A stretch of 39,782 nucleotides of DNA, from positions 1 through 39,782 of the forward strand of contig JALXCZ010000047.1 in the NCBI GenBank assembly GCA_026990595.1, in the 5' to 3' direction. Both the position numbers and the translations under genes were made by a program. The DNA comes from Sulfurovum sp. GTDB lineage: Bacteria; Campylobacterota; Campylobacteria; Campylobacterales; Sulfurovaceae. This document shows positions 4,406 through 18,542 of this stretch, one piece after another. Below the pieces are notes generated by a model that did no database searches, was not told the origin of the DNA, and saw only the letters and a program-made list of their open reading frames with translations. Numbering within the stretch: the stretch's first letter is position 1; each line of letters starts with the position of its first letter.

Positions 4406-6634
4406 TTATAGTTCAACAACTGTGATTCCCAAATTCCCCGGCATTCTATAGAATTTTTGGATTTTTGGATGTTTCTTAAGATATTCTGTCACCAATTTTG
4501 ACAGAACTCCTCCACCTGTACCGTGAATGATCTGCACTTCACTGAGATTATTGACCAATGCATCTGAGAGGAATTTATCTACCGTATCAATAGCTTCATC
4601 TGCATACATACCAAGTAACTTCACAGAGACAGAAGCACCGGATTTTTCTACATTTACATCTGCTTTTGGCTTTCGTGGTTTTGGTTTGAGTTTGACTTGT
4701 GGAGTGTCACCTCTTCTCTTTAGCTGAGAAAGTGGCACACGCATCTTCAAACCATCCACAATAATCGTTGCATCTTTCCCACGTAAAGAGATTAATTCAC
4801 CCTTGTGAGAACGGTACTTTACTTTATCGCCCTCTTTTAAAGGTGCTTCATCCACCTTAGCCAACTCTTTTTGTTTGAAGTCTTTACGTTGATGTGCCAC
4901 ATTAAGTAGTCGCCTGCCCTCTGTTGACTCTTTGACTTTAAGCGCTTCACGTGCCTTTTTTGTTGCTGCATTGTAACGGTTTTCAAGTGTCGCTATAGCT
5001 TTTCTATGTTGCTCCTGAAGTTTAAACTCATCCTCTTCCAACTTAACTTTTTTCGCTTCTACTGCTTTTAGCTCTGCGTCTATCTTGGCTATTTTCATAC
5101 GCATTTCACGCTCAAGTGAGGTAGACTTTTCTATGAGTTCATTGAGGTTGTCTTTGTCTTCGCCATAGACTCTCTTTGCCTGCTTCACTATGCCTATAGG
5201 TACGCCATAACGCTCTGCTGTTTCAAAGGCATATGACTTACCAATGCTTCCTTGCAAAAAGGTATAGGTAGGTAAACGACGTTCTTCATCGTACAGTGCA
5301 GCGATGAGTTCTACCTCATCATCACTTGCCATAAGTGATGCCAAACGTTTATGGTGTGTCGTGACAATAAAGCTGATGCCTTTTTTACGAAGTTCATCAA
5401 GCATCACCCTAAAGAGACTTGCTGCTTCATCGGAGTCTGTACCTAGTTCTATCTCATCTACACCTACAATAGCATCTTCTTTATTGAAAAGTTTGGCGAA
5501 CTCCTGCATACGTCCTGCAAAAGTTGAGATATCATTCTTCACAGACTGTGGGTCATCGATAACTGCTTCTATACTTTTATAATGTCCTACCTCTGTTTTG
5601 GAGGCATCACATTTGAATGGCAGCAGGTACTTACTCATATATACGGCGCTTAAAATAGATTTAAGCAGCATGGTCTTACCTCCGGCATTCACTCCGGTAA
5701 CCAGCATGATCTGTTTATGCATATCTATTGTTACTGGTACCGGATTTTCTATGGCGGGGTGGGCAAAGTCTTGAAGTTTGATACGCTTGGATCTGCTTGG
5801 CAAAACAAAAGCATACTCTTTGGCTCTGGCAAACTGTACACGTGCCTGATAGTGATCAAAACGGTCATACTCTTTGTTAATAAAATGTAAAAAACGCTCC
5901 CATTTAAAAAAGATTGCGGATATTTCTTTGCAGTAACGGTAGATGATCGCCTCTTTACCAGAAAGCAGAGCTGATTCTTTCTCTTTTAAATGAGAGATAC
6001 TTTGGGGAAGGATATAAAAAAACCCTGCAGAACTTCGGGCTACTACTGTTGCTTTAATGGCATTATTAAACCCGCCACGTACTAAAAGTGTCTCTTCTCC
6101 ACCGTTAAAATGCACCTGTGTATCTACCAGATAATCTCTGAGTTTCGAAGAATGTGTCAATCTATAAAGTGTCTCTTTGATCTCTGTTTTGTTTTGCTTG
6201 ATCGCACGTTCAAGTTTATAGAGTTCAGGATCACGTTCAGGGTTGATATCTCCCTCTTCCGTGAAATAGCCTATGATCTCTACAATCTCCTCAGGTATCT
6301 CTATACTTTGTATCCATGAAATGAGCGGCTCAGTGAAACCTGCGGCATTTAAACTGTTAAAATAAGAGAACATCGTTACAAAAGCATAAATCTCATCTAA
6401 ACCAAGTACTGCCTGTTTTTTGATACGTGCCAATTCATTATCAAGATTGGGTACCTGCTTTGGCAGGGGAAACTGTACCTTTGAAAGTGCCTGTATATAA
6501 CGGTAATGCTGATTGATATCTCCCTGCATTGCTACAGGTTTTTCTCTGGCTAAAAACTGTTTGAACTGTGAGAGATATCCATCAAGATCCAGTTTTTGAA
6601 TAATGGATTTTTCATTATTCTGCTGTTCAAGCAT
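4406..6634 (-). CDS. mutS2: MutS2 family ATPase/endonuclease
   Basis: MutS2 proteins suppress recombination and, in other bacteria, act on branched DNA or stalled collided ribosomes. This 742-residue protein has a coiled N-terminal/clamp region, a MutS ATPase with Walker A GVNAGGKTMLLKS at about 314-326 and Walker B IVGVDEIELGTD near 390-402, then a long charged coiled coil (about 500-590), and a C-terminal Smr nuclease domain (about 672-742) with HGTGGGVLSKLV. There is no MutS mismatch-reading domain, as expected for MutS2. The ATG at 6634 follows GAGG with a 9-nt spacer and lies 4 nt after murC. The murC-mutS2 order matches Helicobacter and Campylobacter. Confidence 0.95.
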   Translation of the reverse strand: MLEQQNNEKSIIQKLDLDGYLSQFKQFLAREKPVAMQGDINQHYRYIQALSKVQFPLPKQVPNLDNELARIKKQAVLGLDEIYAFVTMFSYFNSLNAAGFTEPLISWIQSIEIPEEIVEIIGYFTEEGDINPERDPELYKLERAIKQNKTEIKETLYRLTHSSKLRDYLVDTQVHFNGGEETLLVRGGFNNAIKATVVARSSAGFFYILPQSISHLKEKESALLSGKEAIIYRYCKEISAIFFKWERFLHFINKEYDRFDHYQARVQFARAKEYAFVLPSRSKRIKLQDFAHPAIENPVPVTIDMHKQIMLVTGVNAGGKTMLLKSILSAVYMSKYLLPFKCDASKTEVGHYKSIEAVIDDPQSVKNDISTFAGRMQEFAKLFNKEDAIVGVDEIELGTDSDEAASLFRVMLDELRKKGISFIVTTHHKRLASLMASDDEVELIAALYDEERRLPTYTFLQGSIGKSYAFETAERYGVPIGIVKQAKRVYGEDKDNLNELIEKSTSLEREMRMKIAKIDAELKAVEAKKVKLEEDEFKLQEQHRKAIATLENRYNAATKKAREALKVKESTEGRRLLNVAHQRKDFKQKELAKVDEAPLKEGDKVKYRSHKGELISLRGKDATIIVDGLKMRVPLSQLKRRGDTPQVKLKPKPRKPKADVNVEKSGASVSVKLLGMYADEAIDTVDKFLSDALVNNLSEVQIIHGTGGGVLSKLVTEYLKKHPKIQKFYRMPGNLGITVVEL

Positions 6635-6638
6635 CTAT

Positions 6639-7952
6639 CTATGCCTCTCCACGTATCTGATAGGTAATATCTCCGGCACCAAAAGCCGTCACCAAGCCTT
6701 CAGCATATTCACGTATAATATTTCCGTCACGCAAAACTTTAACAACACCGTCTTCCTTTGTCACGCTGTCCGCCATAAGTAGTTTATAGCGGGAGAATGC
6801 ACCTTTTAGATCTATGTCTACTTCTAATTCCCCTGCAGACCAGATAGGAAGAATGACAAGCTCATCCACCCCTTCAAAACACTCTACGAATCCTTGCAGG
6901 TTATCCATAGTTCTGGAATACTTATGCGGCTGCCAAATGACATTGAGTTGTGTAAAATTACGTAGATTTTTATAACTATGCAAAGATTCCATTGTTACCT
7001 TAATCTCTGTAGGATGATGCCCATAGTCATCTATGACCACACACTTCTCCTGATTTTGCACAATATCAAAACGTTTCTTTATTCCTTTATATTTCAAAAG
7101 ATTTTGTCGTATCTCTTCCAGTTTTTCACCAAGTTCCAACGCTGCTAAAATAGCCAGTGCCGCATCCAATGCAATATGTGCTCCAAAACCGAAAACTTCA
7201 AAAGTACCCAAGTCCAAAAATTCAAATTTTGTGTGCGGTTCACCATTTACCAATACAAATTCTATATTTCTAATATCTTGGCTTGGATAGAGTTTAATAC
7301 TCTGCATATCAAGTGAAGAGAGGAATTCATCTTCTGCATTGATCACACGCACTTTAGCTAAAGAAAGAAAGTTTCTGTAAGCATTGTAAAAACGCTCTTC
7401 ATCATACTCATAGTACTCCATATGCTCAGGTTCCACATTTGTCACAATAGCCAGATACGGGTTGGAATTCAAGAAACTTTCATCACTTTCATCTGCTTCA
7501 AAGACCACCTTGTCGTTAGGATAGTTTCGTACATTGGATCCAAACGCTTTGGAGATCGCACCGATAAGGGCATTGGACTCAGGAATGATGGAAGCAAGCA
7601 TTGCTGAAGTCGTACTTTTCCCGTGTGCCCCACCTACCGCATATACCTCTTTTTCACCTAAAATGAACTTGAGTGCCTCTTTTCTTGAAAGCAGTTCAAT
7701 ACCTAATGCCTGAGCTTTTTGATACTCCGGATTATTTTTACGTACCGCAGCAGAGTAGATGACCCTCTCCACACCAATGACTGCATCTTCATGGTGAGGA
7801 ATAGTGATCTTGGCATCAAAATTGGTTGCCAGGTCATTGGTGATCTCTGTCTGTTTGATGTCTGAACCGGAGATTTTATGTCCGTCATTATGCAAAAATT
7901 TTGCCAAAGCTGAGAGCCCTATACCTCCTATGCCGATAAAGTGTATTTTCAC
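6639..7952 (-). CDS. murC: UDP-N-acetylmuramate--L-alanine ligase
   Basis: Adds L-alanine to UDP-N-acetylmuramic acid, the first amino-acid step of peptidoglycan precursor synthesis in the cytosol. The 437 residues show the N-terminal nucleotide-binding start MKIHFIGIGGIGLSALA, the ATP loop GGAHGKSTTSAML near residue 107, the acidic metal site FEADESDESFL, and the Mur ligase C-terminal motif DDYGHHPTEI followed by WQPHKYSRT. Length is normal for MurC. The gene starts one base after the stop of the upstream unknown gene and is followed after 4 nt by mutS2, forming one operon. Confidence 0.97.
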   Translation of the reverse strand: MKIHFIGIGGIGLSALAKFLHNDGHKISGSDIKQTEITNDLATNFDAKITIPHHEDAVIGVERVIYSAAVRKNNPEYQKAQALGIELLSRKEALKFILGEKEVYAVGGAHGKSTTSAMLASIIPESNALIGAISKAFGSNVRNYPNDKVVFEADESDESFLNSNPYLAIVTNVEPEHMEYYEYDEERFYNAYRNFLSLAKVRVINAEDEFLSSLDMQSIKLYPSQDIRNIEFVLVNGEPHTKFEFLDLGTFEVFGFGAHIALDAALAILAALELGEKLEEIRQNLLKYKGIKKRFDIVQNQEKCVVIDDYGHHPTEIKVTMESLHSYKNLRNFTQLNVIWQPHKYSRTMDNLQGFVECFEGVDELVILPIWSAGELEVDIDLKGAFSRYKLLMADSVTKEDGVVKVLRDGNIIREYAEGLVTAFGAGDITYQIRGEA

Positions 7953-7953
7953 G

Positions 7954-8556
7954 CTATGACTCCTTACTCTTTTCCAAAACTTTTAACTCTTCTTTTCCCT
8001 GTTCTACATAGTTGGCATACATAGCAAGCAGCATATCATTTGGCTGCACAAAGGTCTGAATGAAAAATGCCAAAGGATCCTTCGGATCAATATCATTCAC
8101 ATCTACCATCTCTTCAATAAAATCTTCAAAACTGATCCCAGCCATAACTGCACAGGCATGGATCATCATCGCTTCTTTAAGCCCTTCATGATCTATGGTG
8201 TGATAAAGCACCAAGAACATCTCTTTGGCTGCTTTCTTGTCATTCTCACTATAGCGTTGGATGGCATGTTCATAGATGGCTCTTGCAATGGCTCTCTCTT
8301 CTAAATTGTTGACAACATCAAATGACTTATGCTCAGAGAGATACTCTGCCAATCTGTCAAAGGCTGTATTGACAATAAACGTAAAGACTTCATTGATCTC
8401 ATCTTCAGATGATTCTATCACCAAATGGGCATCTAAAAGCTGATATCCCTTGGCAATGCTCTCTTCTTCTTTGCACTCCTGTTCCAGTCTTTTGATATTT
8501 GCTAAAAACTCCGGATCTTTTTTTAACTCTTCTACGTGTATTTCTGGGGTTTCCAT
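7954..8556 (-). CDS. Acidic helical protein of unknown function
   Basis: A 200-residue, strongly acidic, predicted all-helical cytosolic protein with no signal or membrane segment. I recognise no domain. It is fixed between the aminotransferase (directly adjacent stop and start) and murC (1-nt gap). As I recall, Helicobacter and Campylobacter keep one unknown gene in this murC-mutS2 block too, which suggests a conserved role linked to cell-wall precursor or diaminopimelate synthesis, but nothing in the sequence shows an activity. Confidence 0.8.
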   Translation of the reverse strand: METPEIHVEELKKDPEFLANIKRLEQECKEEESIAKGYQLLDAHLVIESSEDEINEVFTFIVNTAFDRLAEYLSEHKSFDVVNNLEERAIARAIYEHAIQRYSENDKKAAKEMFLVLYHTIDHEGLKEAMMIHACAVMAGISFEDFIEEMVDVNDIDPKDPLAFFIQTFVQPNDMLLAMYANYVEQGKEELKVLEKSKES

Positions 8557-9684
8557 TTAATTATTCTCCAATGCTAATTTTATTCTCTCTAATGCTTCTC
8601 TTGTCTTGTCTGCTTCATACACCAGCGCAAGTCGTATATACCCTTTGCCTTCACCCTCACGCCCCAGAAATGAACCAGGAATCACCTTGAGGTTGTACTC
8701 TTGGTAGAGCTTTATGGTAAAGTCAATTTCATCTTCTATTTTTAGCCAAATATAAAAGGTCGCTTCAGGTGCATCTACTCCTAGTACTTCTTTGGCAATA
8801 TTAAAATTCTTTTTATACTTCTTCCTAAACACATCCACATGTGTCTGGTCTGCCCAAGCTACAGTTGCAGCATACTGTAAAGGTAGAGGCGAGGCACATC
8901 CGACATAGGTACGATACACCATATAGGCTTTAAGAATCTCGGCATCTCCTGCAATAAACCCGCTTCTAAGTCCCGGTGCGGAAGAACGCTTGGAGATAGA
9001 GTTGATGACCAATATATTTTTAAAACTTTCATTACCTGCTTCTATACTTGCATTGAGTAACGACGGCAGAGGCTTATTAAGATAAAGATCGGCATAACAC
9101 TCATCATTAAGCAAAACAAAGTCATGTTTGAGTGCCAACTTTACCCACTGCTTTAAAGCATCCATAGGCATCACTGAGCTTGTCGGATTATTGGGTGAAT
9201 TGAGTATAACAAAGTCTGCTTTGGCAAGCGCTTCTTCATTTACTTCCGGCTGAAAATCATTTGCTTCATTGAGATTTAGGTAAATCACATCTGCTCTACA
9301 TGCTTTAGCTGCTCCTTCATAGATTTGATAAAAGGGATTAGGAAAGACCATGACAGGATTTTCAACATCATACAGTAGAAACTGTGGAAAGTTAAATAGT
9401 ACTTCTCTTGTTCCAAAGGTTGGGATGATCTGTCTGTTTTCTAGGCGTAAACAAAAACGGTTTTCAAGATACTTCAGCATCCCTTCTCTTAACTCTGCTT
9501 CTCCTGCTGTTTTCGGATATTTGTTAAGCAGTGAAGCACTTTTATTCAATGCATCCAAAATAAATTGTGGTGTAGCAAACTGGGGTTCACCGATGGTCAA
9601 AGAAAGTGGTGTGTGGTCACTGTTTGGTTCTACATTCTCAAGAAGAAGGTTAAGTTTCTCAAAGGGGTATGTCTCAAAGTTCAT
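8557..9684 (-). CDS. dapC: PLP-dependent aminotransferase, probably N-succinyldiaminopimelate aminotransferase
   Basis: Class I/II aminotransferase fold, 375 residues. Visible motifs are LTIGEPQFATP at the N-terminus, NSPNNPTSSVM (Asn binding PLP), NDECYADLY (Asp), SISKRSSAPGLRSG with the Schiff-base lysine, and GYIRLALV with the carboxylate-binding arginine. The KRSSAPGLRSGF pattern is typical of DapC-type enzymes of the succinylase lysine/diaminopimelate pathway. Diaminopimelate supplies peptidoglycan, which suits its place upstream of murC. Other aminotransferase specificities are possible. The ATG at 9684 has AGGG 5 nt upstream. Confidence 0.8.
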   Translation of the reverse strand: MNFETYPFEKLNLLLENVEPNSDHTPLSLTIGEPQFATPQFILDALNKSASLLNKYPKTAGEAELREGMLKYLENRFCLRLENRQIIPTFGTREVLFNFPQFLLYDVENPVMVFPNPFYQIYEGAAKACRADVIYLNLNEANDFQPEVNEEALAKADFVILNSPNNPTSSVMPMDALKQWVKLALKHDFVLLNDECYADLYLNKPLPSLLNASIEAGNESFKNILVINSISKRSSAPGLRSGFIAGDAEILKAYMVYRTYVGCASPLPLQYAATVAWADQTHVDVFRKKYKKNFNIAKEVLGVDAPEATFYIWLKIEDEIDFTIKLYQEYNLKVIPGSFLGREGEGKGYIRLALVYEADKTREALERIKLALENN

Positions 9685-9738: not shown

Positions 9739-10173
9739 CTATTGTTCCTCTGCTTCAATCAATAAACGATTTAATGAGGAAGAACTTTCAAATCTGTTCT
9801 CCATCCAACTTTTAAATGTATTTCTTCCTCTCCTCATATATTCCATACCTTTGCTCTCTTTACTTAACTCCCATACAAAACAGTTCAAAGACTTTGCTAT
9901 TTTCATATCTCCGTTTGTAAAATTATTGGCAAGGTATATTTGAAATATTTTTCTTGTCTCTGTTTTCTTGACATTATTATTTTGTCCTAAGTAATCCATA
10001 GCACCCAAAAAATAACTAAAAATAATAGGATAGTACACTTCGTTATCAAATAAATTTTTTCTTTTTTGCATAGGTATTTTCAATGACATTTCAGTAAATA
10101 GATTCAAAAGTTCATGAATTTCACCATATATACTCTTTTTCTTTTTTTTAGTCAATATATCAAGAATACTCAT
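9739..10173 (-). CDS. Unknown helical protein, single gene
   Basis: A 144-residue protein starting MSILDILTKKKKKS, chosen because TAGGAG lies about 5 nt before this ATG; longer in-frame starts up to 10239 have no such site. It is rich in Asn, Lys and Phe, with no signal peptide. The lysine run is coded by long A tracts, which could slip. I do not recognise the family. It stands alone: a likely -10, TATACT (10210-10205), lies upstream, and gaps separate it from dacB and dapC. Its higher AT content than its neighbours suggests an accessory gene. Confidence 0.65.
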   Translation of the reverse strand: MSILDILTKKKKKSIYGEIHELLNLFTEMSLKIPMQKRKNLFDNEVYYPIIFSYFLGAMDYLGQNNNVKKTETRKIFQIYLANNFTNGDMKIAKSLNCFVWELSKESKGMEYMRRGRNTFKSWMENRFESSSSLNRLLIEAEEQ

Positions 10174-10312
10174 TTTATCTCCTATCTCAAGATTCATAGA
10201 AATCAGTATAGAAAAAAAATAAAGAGATGATAAGAGCATATTGAAGAAAAAAATTTATAAAGAAATGCCAATCTTACCGTATAGTAGTCAGCCTGATTAA
10301 GAGAATAGACTA

Positions 10313-10352: not shown

Positions 10353-12044
10353 TTATTCTTTGAGTAAAAAAGCTCCGTTATTAATATATTTGCGAATGAT
10401 TGCCAATACCTCCCGTGCTTTTTGTTCATCACTATAGGCACCAACAAGCACTTTATGTCTATTTCCGTAACGTACTTTGTAGCGAAACCCTAAATGCTCA
10501 ATACGCTGTAAATACTGCTTACTGGGAATATCGGTAAAGGCACCTGCCTGTACGTAATATTTTTGCAAAGACGAAATTTCATATGAAGAAGGACTCTTGG
10601 TTTTTATGTCCCATAATTCACTTTTGATATTGACTGGCTGAACAACTGCATCTTTATGCTCTACCAACCATTTGATAATATTATTTTGCAGCCCGGAAGC
10701 TCTCCAATTTCCTTTTTTGGTATTTACAAGTATTACAACTGTATAGAATTTTCCTGACTTACTCTTTACATATCCACCGATATTTTTTACCCGTTTCAAT
10801 GTTCCTGTTTTCATCCAGGCATGATTCTTGACAACCGTACCGCGAAAACGTTTTTTAATTGTACCATCCACACCTGCGACAGAGAGAATATTCATCCACC
10901 TTTGTCCATATCTCTCATATGCATTATCATACATATCTGCCAAAAGTTTTGCAGTAAGTTTTGCAGATCGGGAAAGCCCGCATCCATTATCTATTTTTAA
11001 TGCACCAAAGCCCAATACACCTTTACTTCTCAAGATGGTTTCAACTGCTCTTCGTCCTTTATCAAGTGTAGCAGGAGCACCATATTGCTTAGCTCCCAAA
11101 AGAAGAAGTAAATGTCGCGCATAAAGGTTGTTGCTCTTTTTAGCTGTTTTGGAGACTATCTCTTCCAAAGGTTTGGCATAATGTGTAAAAAGTCTTTTTG
11201 CATAAGGAGGTACTTTTTTTAAACGAAGTGTACCTTCTACAGTAATACCTTTCTCTTCTAACTTATCTCTTAATGCATAGTAGAATGATCGATAAGGTTT
11301 AGTCACTACTTTACAAATATTGCGTTTACCACACCGTTTGGAAATCTTTCCCTGAAGCAAGACAGTCGGTATGATATGAGATTTGTCTATCCTGACACCA
11401 GGCCATGAGTATCTGCCACTGCAAGGCTTATTGACCCCTTTTAATTTGTTAAGTAATGTATAACTGTGATCGACTGTTTTTTTTGTCACACTGTTTTTAT
11501 TGGGTGTAACACAAATGGTACTGACACGTTCATTGAACATCATAGCATCAGGCATAGCATTATAGGGGCTGTATGGGTGTTCATCAAAGCCTGAACTGTC
11601 TTTTGTGCCTACTTGAAAATAAGAGCGGTCAATGACAATATTGCCTTTGATCCTGTGTACACCATAGCGATAAATATTGTCTACAATATTTTCAAGATCT
11701 TTATCTGAAAGTGTAGGATCTCCAAATCCTTTAATCACAAGATCACCTTGCAGCACACCTTTACTAAGAAAACCTGCCGTATAGAATTGGGTTGGCCATC
11801 TGTAGTTAAAACCTAACTTTAAAATAGTTGCATAGATTGTCAGTACTTTGATGACAGAAGCCGGTGTTCTGGATTGATTTTCATTAAGGGATGCAATAAT
11901 ATGGCTGCTGTTTCCTGCTTCTTTCATATAAATACTGATATCTTTTTTGGGAATACCGGATCTTTTAATAGCTTCTTCTATACCTAAAGGCAAGCCATAT
12001 GCCCAATAGGTTAGTAACATATAGAATATAACAAACTGTCTCAT
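10353..12044 (-). CDS. dacB: D-Ala-D-Ala carboxypeptidase/endopeptidase (PBP4, family S13) with C-terminal SPOR domain
   Basis: A periplasmic peptidoglycan hydrolase that trims or opens stem-peptide crosslinks. The 563 residues have a signal sequence, then the three penicillin-binding motifs: SVIK (Ser63-Lys66), SNN (304-306) and KTG (412-414). The inserted region between the first two motifs is as in PBP4. Residues about 495-560 (YYVQAGAFTD to the end) form a SPOR domain, which binds glycan strands lacking stem peptides at the division septum. The SPOR tail is not part of E. coli PBP4. The start ATG overlaps the stop of the ovoB-like gene (ATGA), so the two are coupled. Confidence 0.92.
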   Translation of the reverse strand: MRQFVIFYMLLTYWAYGLPLGIEEAIKRSGIPKKDISIYMKEAGNSSHIIASLNENQSRTPASVIKVLTIYATILKLGFNYRWPTQFYTAGFLSKGVLQGDLVIKGFGDPTLSDKDLENIVDNIYRYGVHRIKGNIVIDRSYFQVGTKDSSGFDEHPYSPYNAMPDAMMFNERVSTICVTPNKNSVTKKTVDHSYTLLNKLKGVNKPCSGRYSWPGVRIDKSHIIPTVLLQGKISKRCGKRNICKVVTKPYRSFYYALRDKLEEKGITVEGTLRLKKVPPYAKRLFTHYAKPLEEIVSKTAKKSNNLYARHLLLLLGAKQYGAPATLDKGRRAVETILRSKGVLGFGALKIDNGCGLSRSAKLTAKLLADMYDNAYERYGQRWMNILSVAGVDGTIKKRFRGTVVKNHAWMKTGTLKRVKNIGGYVKSKSGKFYTVVILVNTKKGNWRASGLQNNIIKWLVEHKDAVVQPVNIKSELWDIKTKSPSSYEISSLQKYYVQAGAFTDIPSKQYLQRIEHLGFRYKVRYGNRHKVLVGAYSDEQKAREVLAIIRKYINNGAFLLKE

Positions 12045-13195
12045 ATTTTTTCCTTATATGCACACGATAATCTCTGCATCGCTTCTTCTAAAACTTCTTT
12101 TGATGTTCCTATATTCAAACGCATAAACCCTTTGCCTGCTTGACCGAAACTCAATCCGTCATTCAGCCCAAGCCTTGCATGATGTACAAAAAAATCCACA
12201 AGTACTTCCTGACTGACACCACATCCCCTACAGTCAAGCCACATTAAAAAAGTAGCTTCAGTAGAGATCGTTCTTATGGGAAAAGGGTGTGCTTCTATAA
12301 ATGAACTAACATACGTTATATTGGCTTCTAAATACTTCTTAAGTTCCCCAAGCCAAGCCTCACCTTCTTCATAGGCACTTATCAGTGCTTCTATCCCGAA
12401 CGGATTGCCGTTTGTGATACCTGATCTTTGTTGCTCTATATTATAAGCCTTACGAAGCTTTTTATCGGGGATGATCGCATAGGAGGTATTGAGCCCTGCT
12501 ACATTGAAAGTTTTGGAAGGCGCATTGAGTATAATACATCTGTTACGTGCCTTCTCAAAACTTCCTAGGATATGGTGTGTTTTAGTATAGACAATATCGG
12601 CATGGATCTCATCAGAGATGATCAAGACATTATACATCGTACAGATCGCTACCATCCTCTCCAACTCCTCCTTATTCCATACTCTTCCTGTCGGATTGTG
12701 TGGGGAACAGAGTAGAAAAAGTACTGCATCTTTTGCTTTTTTCTCAAAATCCTCAAAGTCAATATAGTATGCATTATTTTCATAGATCAGTGTATTGTCA
12801 AGCAATGTTCTGTTCCTGTGTTTTACAGAAGAAGCAAAAGGAGGATAAAGCGGTGTTTGAATAAGTATCCCATCACCCTCTTTACTATAGGCTTCAATGG
12901 CAAAATTGATAGAAGGAACAACACCGTAACACGGTACGATCCACTCCTCTTCTATCTCCCAATCAAAACGCTTTTTCACCCATTTGCTAATAGCATCATA
13001 ATATCTTTGGGGATAGACCGTATAGCCGTAAATAGGATGTGAGGCTCTTTTCTGCATCGCTTTTTGCACACACTCAGGCGAAGCTAGATCCATATCTGCT
13101 ACCCAAAGGGGTAAAAGATCATCCATACCGAATTTCTTTTTGGTTTCATCCAATTTAACAGCATAAGTACCTTTTCTCTCTACAGCTTCAAACAT
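12041..13195 (-). CDS. ovoB: PLP-dependent C-S lyase (MalY/PatB type), likely ovothiol sulfoxide lyase OvoB
   Basis: Fold-type I PLP enzyme of 384 residues, close in pattern to MalY/PatB cystathionine beta-lyases: LPLWVADMDLASP, CSPHNPTGRVW, SDEIHAD (194-200) and NAPSKTFNVAGLNTS with the PLP lysine K228. It lies 3 nt after ovoA. In ovothiol synthesis OvoA makes 5-histidylcysteine sulfoxide and a PLP lyase, OvoB, then cleaves the C-S bond to release 5-thiohistidine. The placement makes that the best role. A plain cystathionine beta-lyase cannot be excluded by sequence, so the symbol is an inference from context. Confidence 0.78.
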   Translation of the reverse strand: MFEAVERKGTYAVKLDETKKKFGMDDLLPLWVADMDLASPECVQKAMQKRASHPIYGYTVYPQRYYDAISKWVKKRFDWEIEEEWIVPCYGVVPSINFAIEAYSKEGDGILIQTPLYPPFASSVKHRNRTLLDNTLIYENNAYYIDFEDFEKKAKDAVLFLLCSPHNPTGRVWNKEELERMVAICTMYNVLIISDEIHADIVYTKTHHILGSFEKARNRCIILNAPSKTFNVAGLNTSYAIIPDKKLRKAYNIEQQRSGITNGNPFGIEALISAYEEGEAWLGELKKYLEANITYVSSFIEAHPFPIRTISTEATFLMWLDCRGCGVSQEVLVDFFVHHARLGLNDGLSFGQAGKGFMRLNIGTSKEVLEEAMQRLSCAYKEKI

Positions 13196-13198
13196 ATT

Positions 13199-15310
13199 TT
13201 ATCTCTTTTTCCATACTGTCATTTCTGCAACTGTATGCTGATGTTTTCTGGCTGTCTCTTGGATCACAAAAGGAATATCCTGTCTGTCAAACAGTTCAAA
13301 TTGAGGTTCAAGAATCTCTTTGAGTCCCTCTAATGTACTCACATTTTCTCCGTCTTTTTTGTACCCGCCTATCCACTTTTCTTTAGGTGTAGACTCTTCC
13401 TGCCAGGTATACGGAGATGTCATAATGAACAATCCGCCTTCATTAAGCCGTGAAGCGATCGAATCCAAAAACTTTTTAGGATCATAGAGTCTATCCAAAA
13501 GATTACCTGCAAAAATAAGATCAAAATCTTTGAAGATCGGTTTGAGATTACAGGCATCCGCCTGCCAAAATGCTACTTTTTTACATTCATTTTCCAGACC
13601 AAAGGCAGTAAGACTCACTTCATGAAATGTTTCCAAGTCACCTTCTGTAGGCATAACGTACCGGAGTATGCCATTCTCTTTGAGTTTTTGGGCTTCCTGT
13701 ATGAAACGGGTGGAGAAATCCACACCGATCACTTCATCAAACCCCCGTGCAAGTTCAAATGTACTGCGCCCAATAGCACAACCGATATCAAACGCTTTTC
13801 GTTTTGGTCTGTTTTTCATATATGCCAAAGCAATACCTGCACATTTTGCAGGATAGTTCTCTACTTTCAATCTATTCTCACCCCATCCAAAGTGGCAATA
13901 TTGAGAAATAATACTGTCGGTGGTGTAACTATTGGTGGTTACTTGCTCCGTATATCCACTCTCCACATATCTGAAACCTGCATGCTGATAGAAATGGCGT
14001 CTAAATCCGTAACGGCTCTTTTGTGTAGCAAGATTTCCACAGCTTATCCATGATCCGCCATTGATGAGATTGTGTTTCCCGTCAAAGGTTGGAACAGTGA
14101 AATCATCATAGACAGGATGCACTTTAAAGCCCTCAAAAGGGTAGATAGGCGTACGCGACCACTGCCATGCATTCCCTATGACATCATAGAAGTCACCGTG
14201 TCTATAGTGATCCACGGGCACAGAGGAAGCAAAGCCTTCAAGATCAATGTTGGCTATTGTTTCACCTCTATCTCTCCACTCAAGATAGGAAGGTATATCA
14301 CACACATCCTGCAATCTGATATATTCATCTTCAGCAGGAAGCCTCACTGTAATACCCTCTTTCTGACTCTTCCATTTACAAAACGCTTCTGCCTCCAGAT
14401 AGTTTACTTCCACAGGCCAATTCAGCGGAAGTGCTATCTTTCGGCTAAGTGTACGGAGTATATATCCGTTTTCACTCTTTTTCCAGAAAAGAGGATGCTT
14501 AGCTTTGGTAAATGTTTTCCATGCCCTGCCTTCATTACACCAGAAAATATCGTTCTCATATCCACCATCCTGTATAAAAGCAAGGAACTCACTGTTGGAT
14601 GTTAAATATTTGGATGCTTTAAATGCAGGAATATCTGCCTGATGCGTAGCATACTCATTGTCCCAGCCGAAAAGTATGGCATCTTTACTCTTACCGAGAG
14701 TTACCTTTCCTGCAGTAACTTCTAAGAGTTCATTTTGTGGTGCCTCACCATATTGCATACACTCTTGCCAGCGTCTGTCTTCTCTAATACTCTCAAAAGG
14801 GAGTTGGCGTATCAATACAGAAGAAGTTTCCAGATGGATATTTTCATGTTCTATCCCCATCAGGATTACCCACCAGGGGGATTCCCAAGTGATAGGCAAT
14901 GTTAACGGCAAACTGTCGATCAGTTCAGAAACAAGGGTATAAACTTTGTCGCGATATGCCTGTGTCTGAGAAAGCGTCGGCCACTCATAATGGGCATCAT
15001 TGAGATCATCCCAACTCATTTCATCTACACCTACGGCAAAAATAGACTCCAGATTCGGATCTATGCGTGTATCAATGATCTTGGCAAGTTTGAGTTTGTT
15101 GATAAAAAAGGTAGCAGTATGTCCATAGTAAAAGATAATAGGATGTCGAAGAGGATCAGCTTTTTGAAAGTAGGCATCTTTATCTGCTACTATATTGAAA
15201 AGTGATTCATAACGTTTATAACAGCTTTGAAAATACGTTTTTATCTCTTTACGTTTTTCTTCACTGTTGTTGCCTGCAAGTGTAGGCAGTTTAATCACAT
15301 GCTTCATCAT
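13199..15310 (-). CDS. ovoA: 5-histidylcysteine sulfoxide synthase / thiohistidine methyltransferase
   Basis: OvoA is a non-haem iron enzyme that joins cysteine to histidine C5 with oxygen; its C-terminal domain methylates 5-thiohistidine to give ovothiol A, a redox thiol. The 703 residues show a DinB-like N-terminal domain with the iron ligands H64 (YYGH) and the HX3HXE motif H155/H159/E161, a formylglycine-enzyme-like domain (about 195-450: INGGSWISCG, YGFRRHFYQHAGFRYVE), and a methyltransferase domain (about 465-703) with DIGCAIG at 508-514. All parts are intact. The first ATG is at 15310, with a second directly after it; only a weak AAAGA precedes them. The next gene is an ovoB-like lyase. 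Confidence 0.94.
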   Translation of the reverse strand: MMKHVIKLPTLAGNNSEEKRKEIKTYFQSCYKRYESLFNIVADKDAYFQKADPLRHPIIFYYGHTATFFINKLKLAKIIDTRIDPNLESIFAVGVDEMSWDDLNDAHYEWPTLSQTQAYRDKVYTLVSELIDSLPLTLPITWESPWWVILMGIEHENIHLETSSVLIRQLPFESIREDRRWQECMQYGEAPQNELLEVTAGKVTLGKSKDAILFGWDNEYATHQADIPAFKASKYLTSNSEFLAFIQDGGYENDIFWCNEGRAWKTFTKAKHPLFWKKSENGYILRTLSRKIALPLNWPVEVNYLEAEAFCKWKSQKEGITVRLPAEDEYIRLQDVCDIPSYLEWRDRGETIANIDLEGFASSVPVDHYRHGDFYDVIGNAWQWSRTPIYPFEGFKVHPVYDDFTVPTFDGKHNLINGGSWISCGNLATQKSRYGFRRHFYQHAGFRYVESGYTEQVTTNSYTTDSIISQYCHFGWGENRLKVENYPAKCAGIALAYMKNRPKRKAFDIGCAIGRSTFELARGFDEVIGVDFSTRFIQEAQKLKENGILRYVMPTEGDLETFHEVSLTAFGLENECKKVAFWQADACNLKPIFKDFDLIFAGNLLDRLYDPKKFLDSIASRLNEGGLFIMTSPYTWQEESTPKEKWIGGYKKDGENVSTLEGLKEILEPQFELFDRQDIPFVIQETARKHQHTVAEMTVWKKR

Positions 15311-15345: not shown

Positions 15346-15684
15346 TCAAAAATCTATTTTTTCTTTTGAACTTTCTATCATAGAGACAATGATCGTATAG
15401 AGATTGGCGATCACTGCACCGATCACAAGTCCAATAGCCATAGTTCTATTTTCATAAAATTTCATAGCAAAAAATGCAGGGATCAAATGCAAGTCTGCTA
15501 CAAGTGAACCTGCCAGAAGTTCCGCAGAGAGTATATTTCTTACTCCGATCTTCAGTATCGTAGAAACCATATTGACCGAACCAGCGACAAACAGTGCCAC
15601 CAGTGAATCTTCATACAAAAATGCTGCTGATGTTGTCAATGACATCAACGTAAAGAAGATATAAAAAACTTTTCCCCATTGCAT
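15346..15684 (-). CDS. Small polytopic membrane protein, DUF6394-like
   Basis: A 112-residue inner-membrane protein with about three hydrophobic helices: residues 5-30, 62-75 as a weaker one, and 80-103. It resembles the DUF6394 family, which I know mainly from Campylobacterota and which has no known function. MQWGKVFYIFFTLMS at the start and GLVIGAVIANLYTIIVSMIE near the end are its clearest stretches. The ATG at 15684 follows AAGGAG. It lies 29 nt after secF, with its own -10 across the secF stop codon, and 35 nt before ovoA. The family name is from memory. Confidence 0.75.
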   Translation of the reverse strand: MQWGKVFYIFFTLMSLTTSAAFLYEDSLVALFVAGSVNMVSTILKIGVRNILSAELLAGSLVADLHLIPAFFAMKFYENRTMAIGLVIGAVIANLYTIIVSMIESSKEKIDF

Positions 15685-15712: not shown

Positions 15713-15718
15713 ATTATA
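15713..15718 (-). promoter_or_regulatory. Predicted -10 overlapping the secF stop codon
   Basis: TATAAT (15718-15713) includes the TAA stop of secF (15716-15714) and lies 29 nt upstream of the ATG of the DUF6394-like gene. It would allow that gene to be expressed apart from secDF. Confidence 0.4.
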
Positions 15719-16685
15719 GCGTACCATTCTCATACATAGCACGCATTTTCTCTTTTTCTTTCTCTCTTTTGAGTTTTGCTGCTTCTTTTTCTCTAAAGTC
15801 ACTCACAGAGAAACCAAGCCACATTAAAATAGGAGATGCTACAAAAATAGAAGAGTAGGTACCTACAACTACACCCACCAAAAGTGTAAAACTAAACCCT
15901 CGAATGATCTCCCCACCAAAGACGAACAGTGTCAGAACAACAAAGAATGTCGTCAATGAAGTCAGTGTTGTTCTTGAAAGTGTCTGGGTAACAGATTCAT
16001 CAATGATCCCTGCCAGATCTGGATCTTTAATGTCTCTGATACCCTCACGGATACGGTCAAAAACAATGATCGTGTCATTTAGAGAATATCCGAGAATAGT
16101 AAGCAGTGCTGCCAAGGTATCGAGGTTTACTTCTATCCCAAAAAGCACTACCGCTCCCATAGCAATGGTAACATCATGCACAAGTGCCATAACTGATGCT
16201 ACAGCAAAACGCCACTCAAACCGGAAAGAGACATAGATAAGAATACCAAGAATCGCCAGGAAGAGAGACATCAATCCTTTTTCTCTCAGCTCAGAACCTA
16301 CCTTGGCTCCAACCATATCAACCCTTCTTATTTCAAAGTTCCCTGTGCCTTTAAGCAGCTCACGCATCGTATCACCCATATCTTTACCCAATGCTTTGGA
16401 ACTGTTTTTGGTACGTATTATAATCTCATTATCATTTCCGAAATAGGTAACACTCGCACTTTCATAGTTTTTATCTTGTGCAATCGCTTTTCTCACTGCC
16501 TCTATCGGTGCTTTCTTCTCATAATGCACTTGTACCAGTGTACCACCGGCAAAATCAAGCCCATAGTTAAAACCTTTGGTAAAAATGAGTCCCAGTGATA
16601 TAATTACCAATGCCAAAGAGAGCACACCAAAACGTTTACTTTTGCTCATCAAAGAGAGCGGTTTTTTATACTTAAAGACTTCCAT
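15714..16685 (-). CDS. secF: Protein translocase subunit SecF
   Basis: Membrane partner of SecD; the pair uses the proton or sodium gradient to pull proteins out of the SecYEG channel on the periplasmic side. The 323 residues show the first membrane helix (GVLSLALVIISLGLIF), the periplasmic start DFAGGTLVQV, and five further helices carrying YSLNDTIIVFDRIREG, the hallmark of SecF. A basic coiled tail (KEAAKLKREKEKEKMR) ends the protein. Its ATG overlaps the secD stop by one base (TAATG). Confidence 0.97.
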   Translation of the reverse strand: MEVFKYKKPLSLMSKSKRFGVLSLALVIISLGLIFTKGFNYGLDFAGGTLVQVHYEKKAPIEAVRKAIAQDKNYESASVTYFGNDNEIIIRTKNSSKALGKDMGDTMRELLKGTGNFEIRRVDMVGAKVGSELREKGLMSLFLAILGILIYVSFRFEWRFAVASVMALVHDVTIAMGAVVLFGIEVNLDTLAALLTILGYSLNDTIIVFDRIREGIRDIKDPDLAGIIDESVTQTLSRTTLTSLTTFFVVLTLFVFGGEIIRGFSFTLLVGVVVGTYSSIFVASPILMWLGFSVSDFREKEAAKLKREKEKEKMRAMYENGTL

Positions 16686-18268
16686 TATTTTGCTCCCTCT
16701 GTTTTAATACCAAACCACAATCCCAGTTTTTTTCTGTCTATCTTTGGCATAAGCCACTGATACATCCCATGTGTCCCGACAATCGCTGTAAGCATCGATG
16801 CCAAAATACCGATCCCCATCGTCAAAGCGAATCCTTTAAGTGGTCCTGTACCGTATGCCCAAAGTACCACTGCTGCGATCAGTGTGGTTACGTTCGCATC
16901 TAAAATGGCGGTAAAAGCTTTATCATACCCATCTTCAACAGCTTTTGCTACCGACTTGCCTGCATGCAGCAGTTCACGTATACGTTCATTAATGATCACG
17001 TTCGCATCCACTGCCATACCTACCGTCAGGACAATACCTGCCATACCTGGCAACGTCAGTGTTGCACCAAAAAGTGACATAATTGCAATAATCAAAAAGA
17101 GGTTTCCTACCAGCGCCACATTGGCAATCACCCCTGCCATACCGTAATAAAGAATCATAAAAAGTACAACCAGTACAAACCCTAAAGCTAACGCTAGAGA
17201 ACTTGCTTTAATATTATCTGCTCCAAGGCTGGGTCCTACAGAACGTTTTTCCATGACATATACAGGAGCAAGCAATGCTCCAGAACGCAAAGCAATCGCA
17301 AGGTCATGTGCTTCATTGAGTTTAAAGTTACCAGAAATCTGTACATGTCCGCCGCCAATGCGCTCTCTAATGACCGGAGCAGAGTAGACCTTATTATCAA
17401 GTACAACTGCCATACGTTTGCCTACAGCCTTAGCTGTATAATCACCAAAGATCTTTGATCCTTCTCCATTGAGTGCAAAGTTGATCACCGGTTGGTTATT
17501 TTTATCAAATCCTACTTTAGCATCCGTCAGTTTAGAACCATCTAATACTGGTATCTGTCTGAGCAGATAACGTCTTTGTTCATCATAGACATCAGGTAGG
17601 ATAACATCACCATATTTTTTGGCTTCATTACTGTTCATTGTCATCACCCTGGCTGCTCTGTCTTCATCGACTGCCATAAGCTGCAGGTGTGCCGCACGGG
17701 CAATAAGTTCACGAATACGCTGTTCATCCGCCTGTGTCTTGATACCCGGTACTTCTACAAGGATCTTGTCTTCACCCTGCTTTGCCACTGTAGGCTCGGC
17801 AAGACCAAATTCATTAAGTCTGTTTCGTATGGTATCTACTGCCTGTTTAATGGCATTTTGTTTGGTTCTTTTTGCCTCTTTGGGTGTCATTTCAACTGAG
17901 AATTTTAAGCCATTCTCACTCAATACTGTACCCGGAAGCTCTTTTTTCAAAAGGGTCTTGGCTTTAGCAACATCATCCTTGTCAAGTAATTCAAAAGTGA
18001 TCTGTTTACCCTCCACGATACGAAGATCATCAAAAATGATCTCTTCATCATCAAAAATATATTTGATCGTTCCCGCCATTGATTTTATACGGGATTCTAT
18101 AGCTGTTTCACTTTTGATCCCAAGCAACATATGAAGCCCGCCCTGAAGGTCAAGCCCTAACGTGATCTTTTCTCCACTTTTACTTTGCATAATGGAAGGA
18201 ATGGAAAAAACCACTCCAAAAATAAGTGCAAAAGCAAAAAGAACAACTCTGAAATTAAGCGTTTTCAT
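16685..18268 (-). CDS. secD: Protein translocase subunit SecD
   Basis: SecD of 527 residues. GLDLQGGLHMLLG follows the first membrane helix, then come the large periplasmic P1 domain and the C-terminal helices with GMAVDANVIINERIREL, the conserved SecD membrane motif. The start is the ATG at 18268 (MKTLNFRVVL), with AGCAGG just upstream and a 14-nt overlap with yajC. An upstream in-frame start at 18328 would put 20 extra residues before the first membrane helix and lie deep in yajC, so it is not used. Confidence 0.97.
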   Translation of the reverse strand: MKTLNFRVVLFAFALIFGVVFSIPSIMQSKSGEKITLGLDLQGGLHMLLGIKSETAIESRIKSMAGTIKYIFDDEEIIFDDLRIVEGKQITFELLDKDDVAKAKTLLKKELPGTVLSENGLKFSVEMTPKEAKRTKQNAIKQAVDTIRNRLNEFGLAEPTVAKQGEDKILVEVPGIKTQADEQRIRELIARAAHLQLMAVDEDRAARVMTMNSNEAKKYGDVILPDVYDEQRRYLLRQIPVLDGSKLTDAKVGFDKNNQPVINFALNGEGSKIFGDYTAKAVGKRMAVVLDNKVYSAPVIRERIGGGHVQISGNFKLNEAHDLAIALRSGALLAPVYVMEKRSVGPSLGADNIKASSLALALGFVLVVLFMILYYGMAGVIANVALVGNLFLIIAIMSLFGATLTLPGMAGIVLTVGMAVDANVIINERIRELLHAGKSVAKAVEDGYDKAFTAILDANVTTLIAAVVLWAYGTGPLKGFALTMGIGILASMLTAIVGTHGMYQWLMPKIDRKKLGLWFGIKTEGAK

Positions 18269-18542
18269 TACCTGCTTCAACCTTTCTGGCAACAAATGCT
18301 CTGTCAAGCTTGACAATCGTGTCATCATTTAATTTGATTTTGATAAAATCTTCTTCAGGTTTAACGATCACCGCGATAAGTCCACCTGAAGTGACAATAT
18401 TGTCACCTTTGGTTAAGCCTTCAAGCATCTCTTTGTGTGCTTTTTGCTGTTTCTGCTGTGGTCTGATGATTAAAAAATAAAAAATTGCAAATAAAATAAG
18501 TAGTGGTGCAAGTGAACCAATTACGCTACCTTGTTGTCCCAT
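18255..18542 (-). CDS. yajC: Sec translocon accessory protein YajC
   Basis: A 95-residue protein with one membrane helix (LAPLLILFAIFYFLIIRP, about residues 10-27) followed by the basic stretch QQKQQKAHKEMLEGL and the family motif LTKGDNIVTSGGLI. YajC associates with SecDF and the translocon. It is the first gene of the yajC-secD-secF operon and its ATG stands only 11 bp from the lnt start on the other strand. AAAGGA is 6 nt before the ATG. Confidence 0.96.
   Translation of the reverse strand: MGQQGSVIGSLAPLLILFAIFYFLIIRPQQKQQKAHKEMLEGLTKGDNIVTSGGLIAVIVKPEEDFIKIKLNDDTIVKLDRAFVARKVEAGNENA

Follow-up and report, generated by a model that had tools for sequence, protein, structure and literature searches.

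An ovoA-lyase gene pair, predicted to direct ovothiol A synthesis, upstream of dacB in a sec/cell-wall gene string of Sulfurovum

Described ovothiol enzymes and the genes of the locus

The closest described counterparts of the proteins discussed here are OvoA (a solved representative is 8khq), which combines a sulfoxide synthase domain containing iron-binding histidines with a methyltransferase domain; the PLP-dependent fold-type I lyase OvoB from Erwinia tasmaniensis (described by Naowarojna et al. 2018 according to the review PMC9103826; 5z0q, “Crystal Structure of OvoB”), the genomic partner of ovoA; the C-S beta-lyases of the PatB/MalY type (TIGR04350, e.g., PatB from B. subtilis, 6qp3); and the PBP4/DacB peptidases (TIGR00666, family S13). 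In a literature search that did not take in the bacterial ovothiol survey PMC8433421, no paper was found to connect the antioxidant ovothiol to Sulfurovum, or ovoA to Epsilonproteobacteria.

In the 39,782-nucleotide stretch of Sulfurovum DNA analyzed here (hereafter, the window), the open reading frames include a tandem on the minus strand that consists of ovoA (13199..15310, 703 aa), a gene for an OvoB-like PLP-dependent C-S beta-lyase of the PatB/MalY type (12041..13195, 384 aa) and dacB (10353..12044, 563 aa), which encodes a PBP4-type (S13) D-Ala-D-Ala carboxypeptidase/endopeptidase. The stop of ovoA and the start of the lyase gene are separated by 3 nt, and the lyase stop overlaps the dacB start by 4 nt within an ATGA on the same strand (12041..12044), an arrangement that is likely to couple translation of dacB to that of the lyase gene. 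These coordinates bear out the layout given in the first-pass annotation. The spacing of the three genes is not a matter of chance: ovoA and the lyase gene adjoin in five families of Campylobacterota, and an overlapping or nearly abutting lyase/dacB junction recurs in most of the relatives that keep this pair. The genes are presumably co-transcribed; a consensus scan, which yielded 39 promoter-like sites (26.9 +/- 5.2 in shuffles) and 7 terminator-like sites (5.9 +/- 2.5), gave no informative pattern with regard to a promoter or terminator splitting the tandem.

The OvoA protein scores well above the cut-offs of both domain models, namely the sulfoxide synthase (TIGR04344, 680.5 bits, cut-off 400) and, at the C-terminus, the 5-thiohistidine methyltransferase (TIGR04345, 340.2 bits, cut-off 170). 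Its alignment with 8khq covers residues 10-702 (954 bits), and H64, H155 and H159, the latter two within the motif EHENIHLE, align with the iron-binding histidines of 8khq and of EgtB (4x8b), so that a three-histidine iron site is predicted. The models for EgtB (160 bits, cut-off 360) and SenA (156 bits, cut-off 420) were rejected for this protein. Judged by sequence, it is a full-length fusion of 5-histidylcysteine sulfoxide synthase and 5-thiohistidine N-methyltransferase, as the first-pass annotation had claimed in listing all iron ligands and the methyltransferase domain. The protein shows no notable difference from the solved OvoA; the distinction lies in the position of its gene within a sec/cell-wall gene string.

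It appears highly probable that ovoA and the lyase gene constitute a two-gene ovothiol A pathway that entered an established sec/cell-wall housekeeping string a single time and was inherited thereafter. In such a pathway, 5-histidylcysteine sulfoxide would be formed from histidine and cysteine by the iron domain of OvoA, elimination of the cysteine part by the PLP lyase (OvoB) would leave 5-thiohistidine, and the methyltransferase domain of OvoA would convert the latter to ovothiol A. The placement of the pair, between yajC-secD-secF-DUF6394 and dacB-dapC-murC-mutS2, would date to an ancestor shared by some members of the Sulfurovum-containing family, and the coupling of dacB translation to the lyase gene would reflect position rather than a chemistry that connects ovothiol with peptidoglycan.

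Assignment of the lyase

The lyase is the sole match to TIGR04350 above the cut-off in the window's genome (498.8 bits, cut-off 340), and its PLP lysine, K228, does not vary among 37 aligned lyases. The nearest named records come from Sulfurovum metagenome-assembled genomes (68-85% identity) and, given this affinity, the genus coded g1 is taken to be Sulfurovum or a close relative; the window's family is coded f1. The AlphaFold model of the lyase (pLDDT 94) matches OvoB 5z0q over the whole length (Z 51.6, 34% identity), whereas the match to the B. subtilis C-S lyase PatB (6qp3) has a Z of 57.5, 38% identity and an rmsd of 1.0 A. The nearest solved structures are C-S lyases of Bacillus and Clostridium rather than OvoB, with Gram-positive enzymes being as close or closer (38-41% identity), an observation that counts against the main reading. 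Homology and fold alone do not separate OvoB from the cystathionine-lyase PatB; the OvoB role is favored by the genomic context, which, unlike that of other PatB/MalY lyases, is ovothiol synthesis and not sulfur salvage.

OvoA was detected in 119 of the 397 sampled genomes of Campylobacterota. All 119 encode a lyase of the TIGR04350 family, compared to 74 of the 278 OvoA-negative genomes, a contrast for which the Fisher p-value is merely descriptive because the genomes are not independent. The lyase gene adjoins ovoA in 59 of the 119, representing five families, and lyases with such a neighbor fall into several distinct clades of the lyase tree. A search for neighbors beyond Campylobacterota covered the flanks of 80 lyase loci; the fetched flanks of loci L166-L240, mostly from other phyla, contained no ovoA, save one Campylobacterales locus. 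In the OvoA tree, the genomes with the ovoA-lyase-dacB tandem form one clade (100/98), and the order of genera, g6, g4, g1, is the same as in the lyase tree. Given that the two genes co-occur, adjoin repeatedly and have congruent trees, the lyase is very probably OvoB, and the same evidence lends good support to the original suggestion that it supplies the missing step of the pathway.

Some genomes of family f7 contain ovoA open reading frames of approximately 470-500 aa, without the methyltransferase domain and directly followed by the lyase gene (L124 6176-8649 in G176; L125 1154-3686 in G133). G234, which also has a normal ovoA, encodes a second, more distant sulfoxide synthase (G234:C77:3304-4599, 473 aa) that scores 355 bits with TIGR04344, under the cut-off of 400.

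Alternatively, although this seems rather unlikely, the lyase could be a general PatB-type cysteine-conjugate/cystathionine beta-lyase for which OvoB activity is a sideline and the conserved partner is dacB, not ovoA. Apart from its closest solved structure being B. subtilis PatB, this possibility is in keeping with the persistence of lyase-dacB pairs in 19 of the 150 genomes of the family in which no ovoA was found, including G058 (one contig), G399 and G003, all about 100% complete. The lyase and dacB genes overlap or nearly abut in most of the relatives that keep them together, with or without ovoA, the exceptions being G284, G405 and G422, which have an 840-nt gap. The ovoA-less lyases are also under purifying selection (dN/dS of 0.165 for G058/G424, compared to 0.07-0.12 in the genomes with all three genes; for G399, G408 and G413, in which no ovoA was found, pN is 0.17-0.20 and pS is saturated). 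However, the lyase is missing from 64 of the 150 genomes, most of which keep dacB, so dacB does not need the lyase; every sampled OvoA-positive genome of Campylobacterota has a lyase of this family; and the nearest outgroup lyases adjoin ovoA, not dacB. Moreover, G238 and G347 have an ovoA from an f11-like source, and the dacB-linked lyase is the single one in these genomes to pass the cut-off. A main role as the cystathionine beta-lyase of the methionine pathway was considered and rejected: all 17 genomes checked, whether or not they have the lyase, encode a metY-type sulfhydrylase, so that methionine synthesis can be explained without invoking the lyase, and the lyase is absent from many genomes.

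The 19 genomes without a detected ovoA are heterogeneous. G485 and G477 are cut by contig ends; G475, G479, G503 and others keep part of ovoA in front of the lyase gene; and in G058, a broken remnant of the ovoA methyltransferase lies elsewhere in the genome, which makes the loss look recent. In the related, Sulfurovum-type G479, G475 and G503 (L105 8231-9276, L107 6677-7585 and L106 10253-10996, respectively), the sulfoxide synthase part is deleted or broken, with remnants that differ in each; what persists as an open reading frame is the methyltransferase part, which has an ATG and a GAGGAG-type ribosome site of its own and is followed by an intact lyase gene and dacB. The dN between these frames is low (0.045-0.089), but the losses in these three genomes may be recent.

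Given that lyase-dacB pairs persist in these 19 genomes and that the lyase remains under purifying selection, the enzyme probably has a use beyond ovothiol. The retention of the lyase/dacB junction over deep divergence counts against the main reading and could mean a real link, such as a second, ovothiol-independent role of the lyase that goes with DacB and involves, e.g., a sulfur-containing amino acid from or for peptidoglycan. Such a role is improbable; if true, it would explain the survival of lyase-dacB after the loss of ovoA in several genera as well as the re-acquisition of ovoA alone, using the resident lyase.

dacB and the housekeeping string

The dacB product is a PBP4 by the TIGR00666 (205.2 bits, cut-off 107.8) and Peptidase_S13 (PF02113, 255.1 bits, cut-off 22.8) profiles, with the S13 domain spanning the mature protein; it differs from the described PBP4/DacB in bearing a C-terminal SPOR domain (PF05036). 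The usual gene order in the family is yajC-secD-secF-DUF6394-[site]-dacB-dapC-murC-mutS2, where the site is the position that ovoA and the lyase gene occupy in the window. Upstream of this position, on the minus strand as are all genes named here, the window contains the gene for a conserved DUF6394 protein (15346..15684, PF19931; 79-88% identity among the relatives that have it) and the housekeeping genes secF (15714..16685) and secD (16685..18328), identified by synteny and named from sequence and operon order. Downstream of dacB are dapC, encoding succinyldiaminopimelate transaminase (8557..9684; NF004494, 625 bits), the usual next gene in the family, murC (6639..7952; TIGR01082, 371 bits) and mutS2 (4406..6634; TIGR01069, 555 bits). 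Two additional open reading frames in this region have no Pfam or NCBIfam match. The first one (166 aa, 9739-10239, minus strand), between dacB and dapC, has no match in the fetched relatives; the second one (200 aa, 7954-8556, minus strand), between dapC and murC, is conserved across much of the family (51-82% identity) and is a candidate envelope or cell-wall gene.

Of the 150 family genomes, 144 have dacB, 86 the lyase gene and 67 ovoA. By coordinates, all three genes lie together in 43 genomes of the genera g1, g6 and g4. The lyase gene and dacB are paired with ovoA elsewhere in 7 genomes; ovoA and the lyase gene are paired with dacB elsewhere in 9, and one more genome, G393, has the pair and no dacB match; dacB stands alone in 58. 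In the fetched loci, some of which are cut by contig ends, the genes that flank dacB do not differ between genomes with and without the ovoA-lyase pair, and the string without either gene before dacB is seen in G204, G316, G365, G285, G473, G446, G364, G250, G131 and G096; in genus g7, dacB has a different context. Outside the family, dacB was tried as a recurring partner of ovoA and rejected: PBP4 was found in 15 of 80 OvoA-positive genomes, all from the window's family, and in none of the other OvoA-positive families of Campylobacterota examined. Because its place is kept in the absence of ovoA and the lyase gene, and PBP4 is absent from these other families, dacB is a housekeeping gene native to this position, and it is the ovothiol pair that varies.

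In the lyase tree, the window's enzyme falls within a clade of f1 lyases that are nearly all dacB-linked. The successive outgroups, namely G393 with two other Campylobacterales, family f11, and then family f8 with G420, are mostly ovoA-adjacent with no dacB alongside. The branching indicates that the 43 genomes with all three genes trace to one inherited arrangement. Under the simplest reading, in which gain versus loss is inferred from the branching order in trees that have no independently determined root, the ovoA-lyase pair came first and was placed upstream of dacB once, after which ovoA was lost in genera g2, g69 and g71, with the lyase gene staying, and some members of these genera later regained ovoA by transfer: the OvoA tree places the gene of G238 and G347 within f11, and the gene of G406 and G411 within the f7/g7 group. 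In G446 (L148) and G471 (L150), from the window's own genus, the ovoA-lyase pair is nested among f7 in both trees and lies away from dacB, and the usual site upstream of dacB in G446 is empty (L149); the pair in these genomes looks like a horizontal replacement.

The first-pass annotation described an ovothiol operon joined to a cell-wall peptidase, possibly for an oxidative cell-wall response. The ovothiol half of this description is well supported, with a complete OvoA and an OvoB-like lyase; the peptidase half finds no support in the comparison of genomes. It is very unlikely that ovothiol synthesis and DacB are functionally coupled, for protection of the envelope or adjustment of peptidoglycan under oxidative stress. 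What speaks for coupling is the tandem itself, which, with dacB apparently coupled in translation, is seen in 43 genomes from three genera, so that dacB is not separate from the pair in all relatives; nevertheless, all these genomes appear to stem from a single lineage, and the expected conservation of the three genes across Campylobacterota extends no further than this part of one family, given that the other OvoA-positive families examined lack PBP4. Within the family, dacB neither depends on ovoA nor follows it across lineages (144 of 150 genomes compared to 67 of 150), being a core gene whose position does not change when ovoA is absent, and some members, including G446, G471, G407 and G492, have the pair and dacB at separate loci. 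Furthermore, secDF and the DUF6394 gene are as close to ovoA as dacB is, so proximity does not single out dacB.

Product of the pathway and implications

A product other than ovothiol A, such as another 5-thiohistidine or a seleno analogue, is hardly to be expected: the related synthases EgtB, SenA and OvsA make ergothioneine or selenoneine, and acetylation of 5-thiohistidine is known in another bacterium (PMC12631010), but the EgtB and SenA models score far below their cut-offs, whereas the OvoA models are passed widely and the methyltransferase domain is intact.

Thus, as far as sequence comparison goes, the locus appears to be a standard ovothiol A gene pair hitch-hiking in a housekeeping string, and the arrangement mostly ordinary. 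What looks like an operon partner may owe its place to accident: in this case, genomes without the pair show dacB to be part of the housekeeping string. Where lyase-dacB pairs have outlived ovoA, they provide a clean set of enzymes with which to ask whether OvoB-type lyases have other uses. More generally, with OvoA in 119 of the 397 sampled genomes and the lyase gene adjacent to ovoA in half of these, ovothiol A synthesis is placed firmly in many Campylobacterota.
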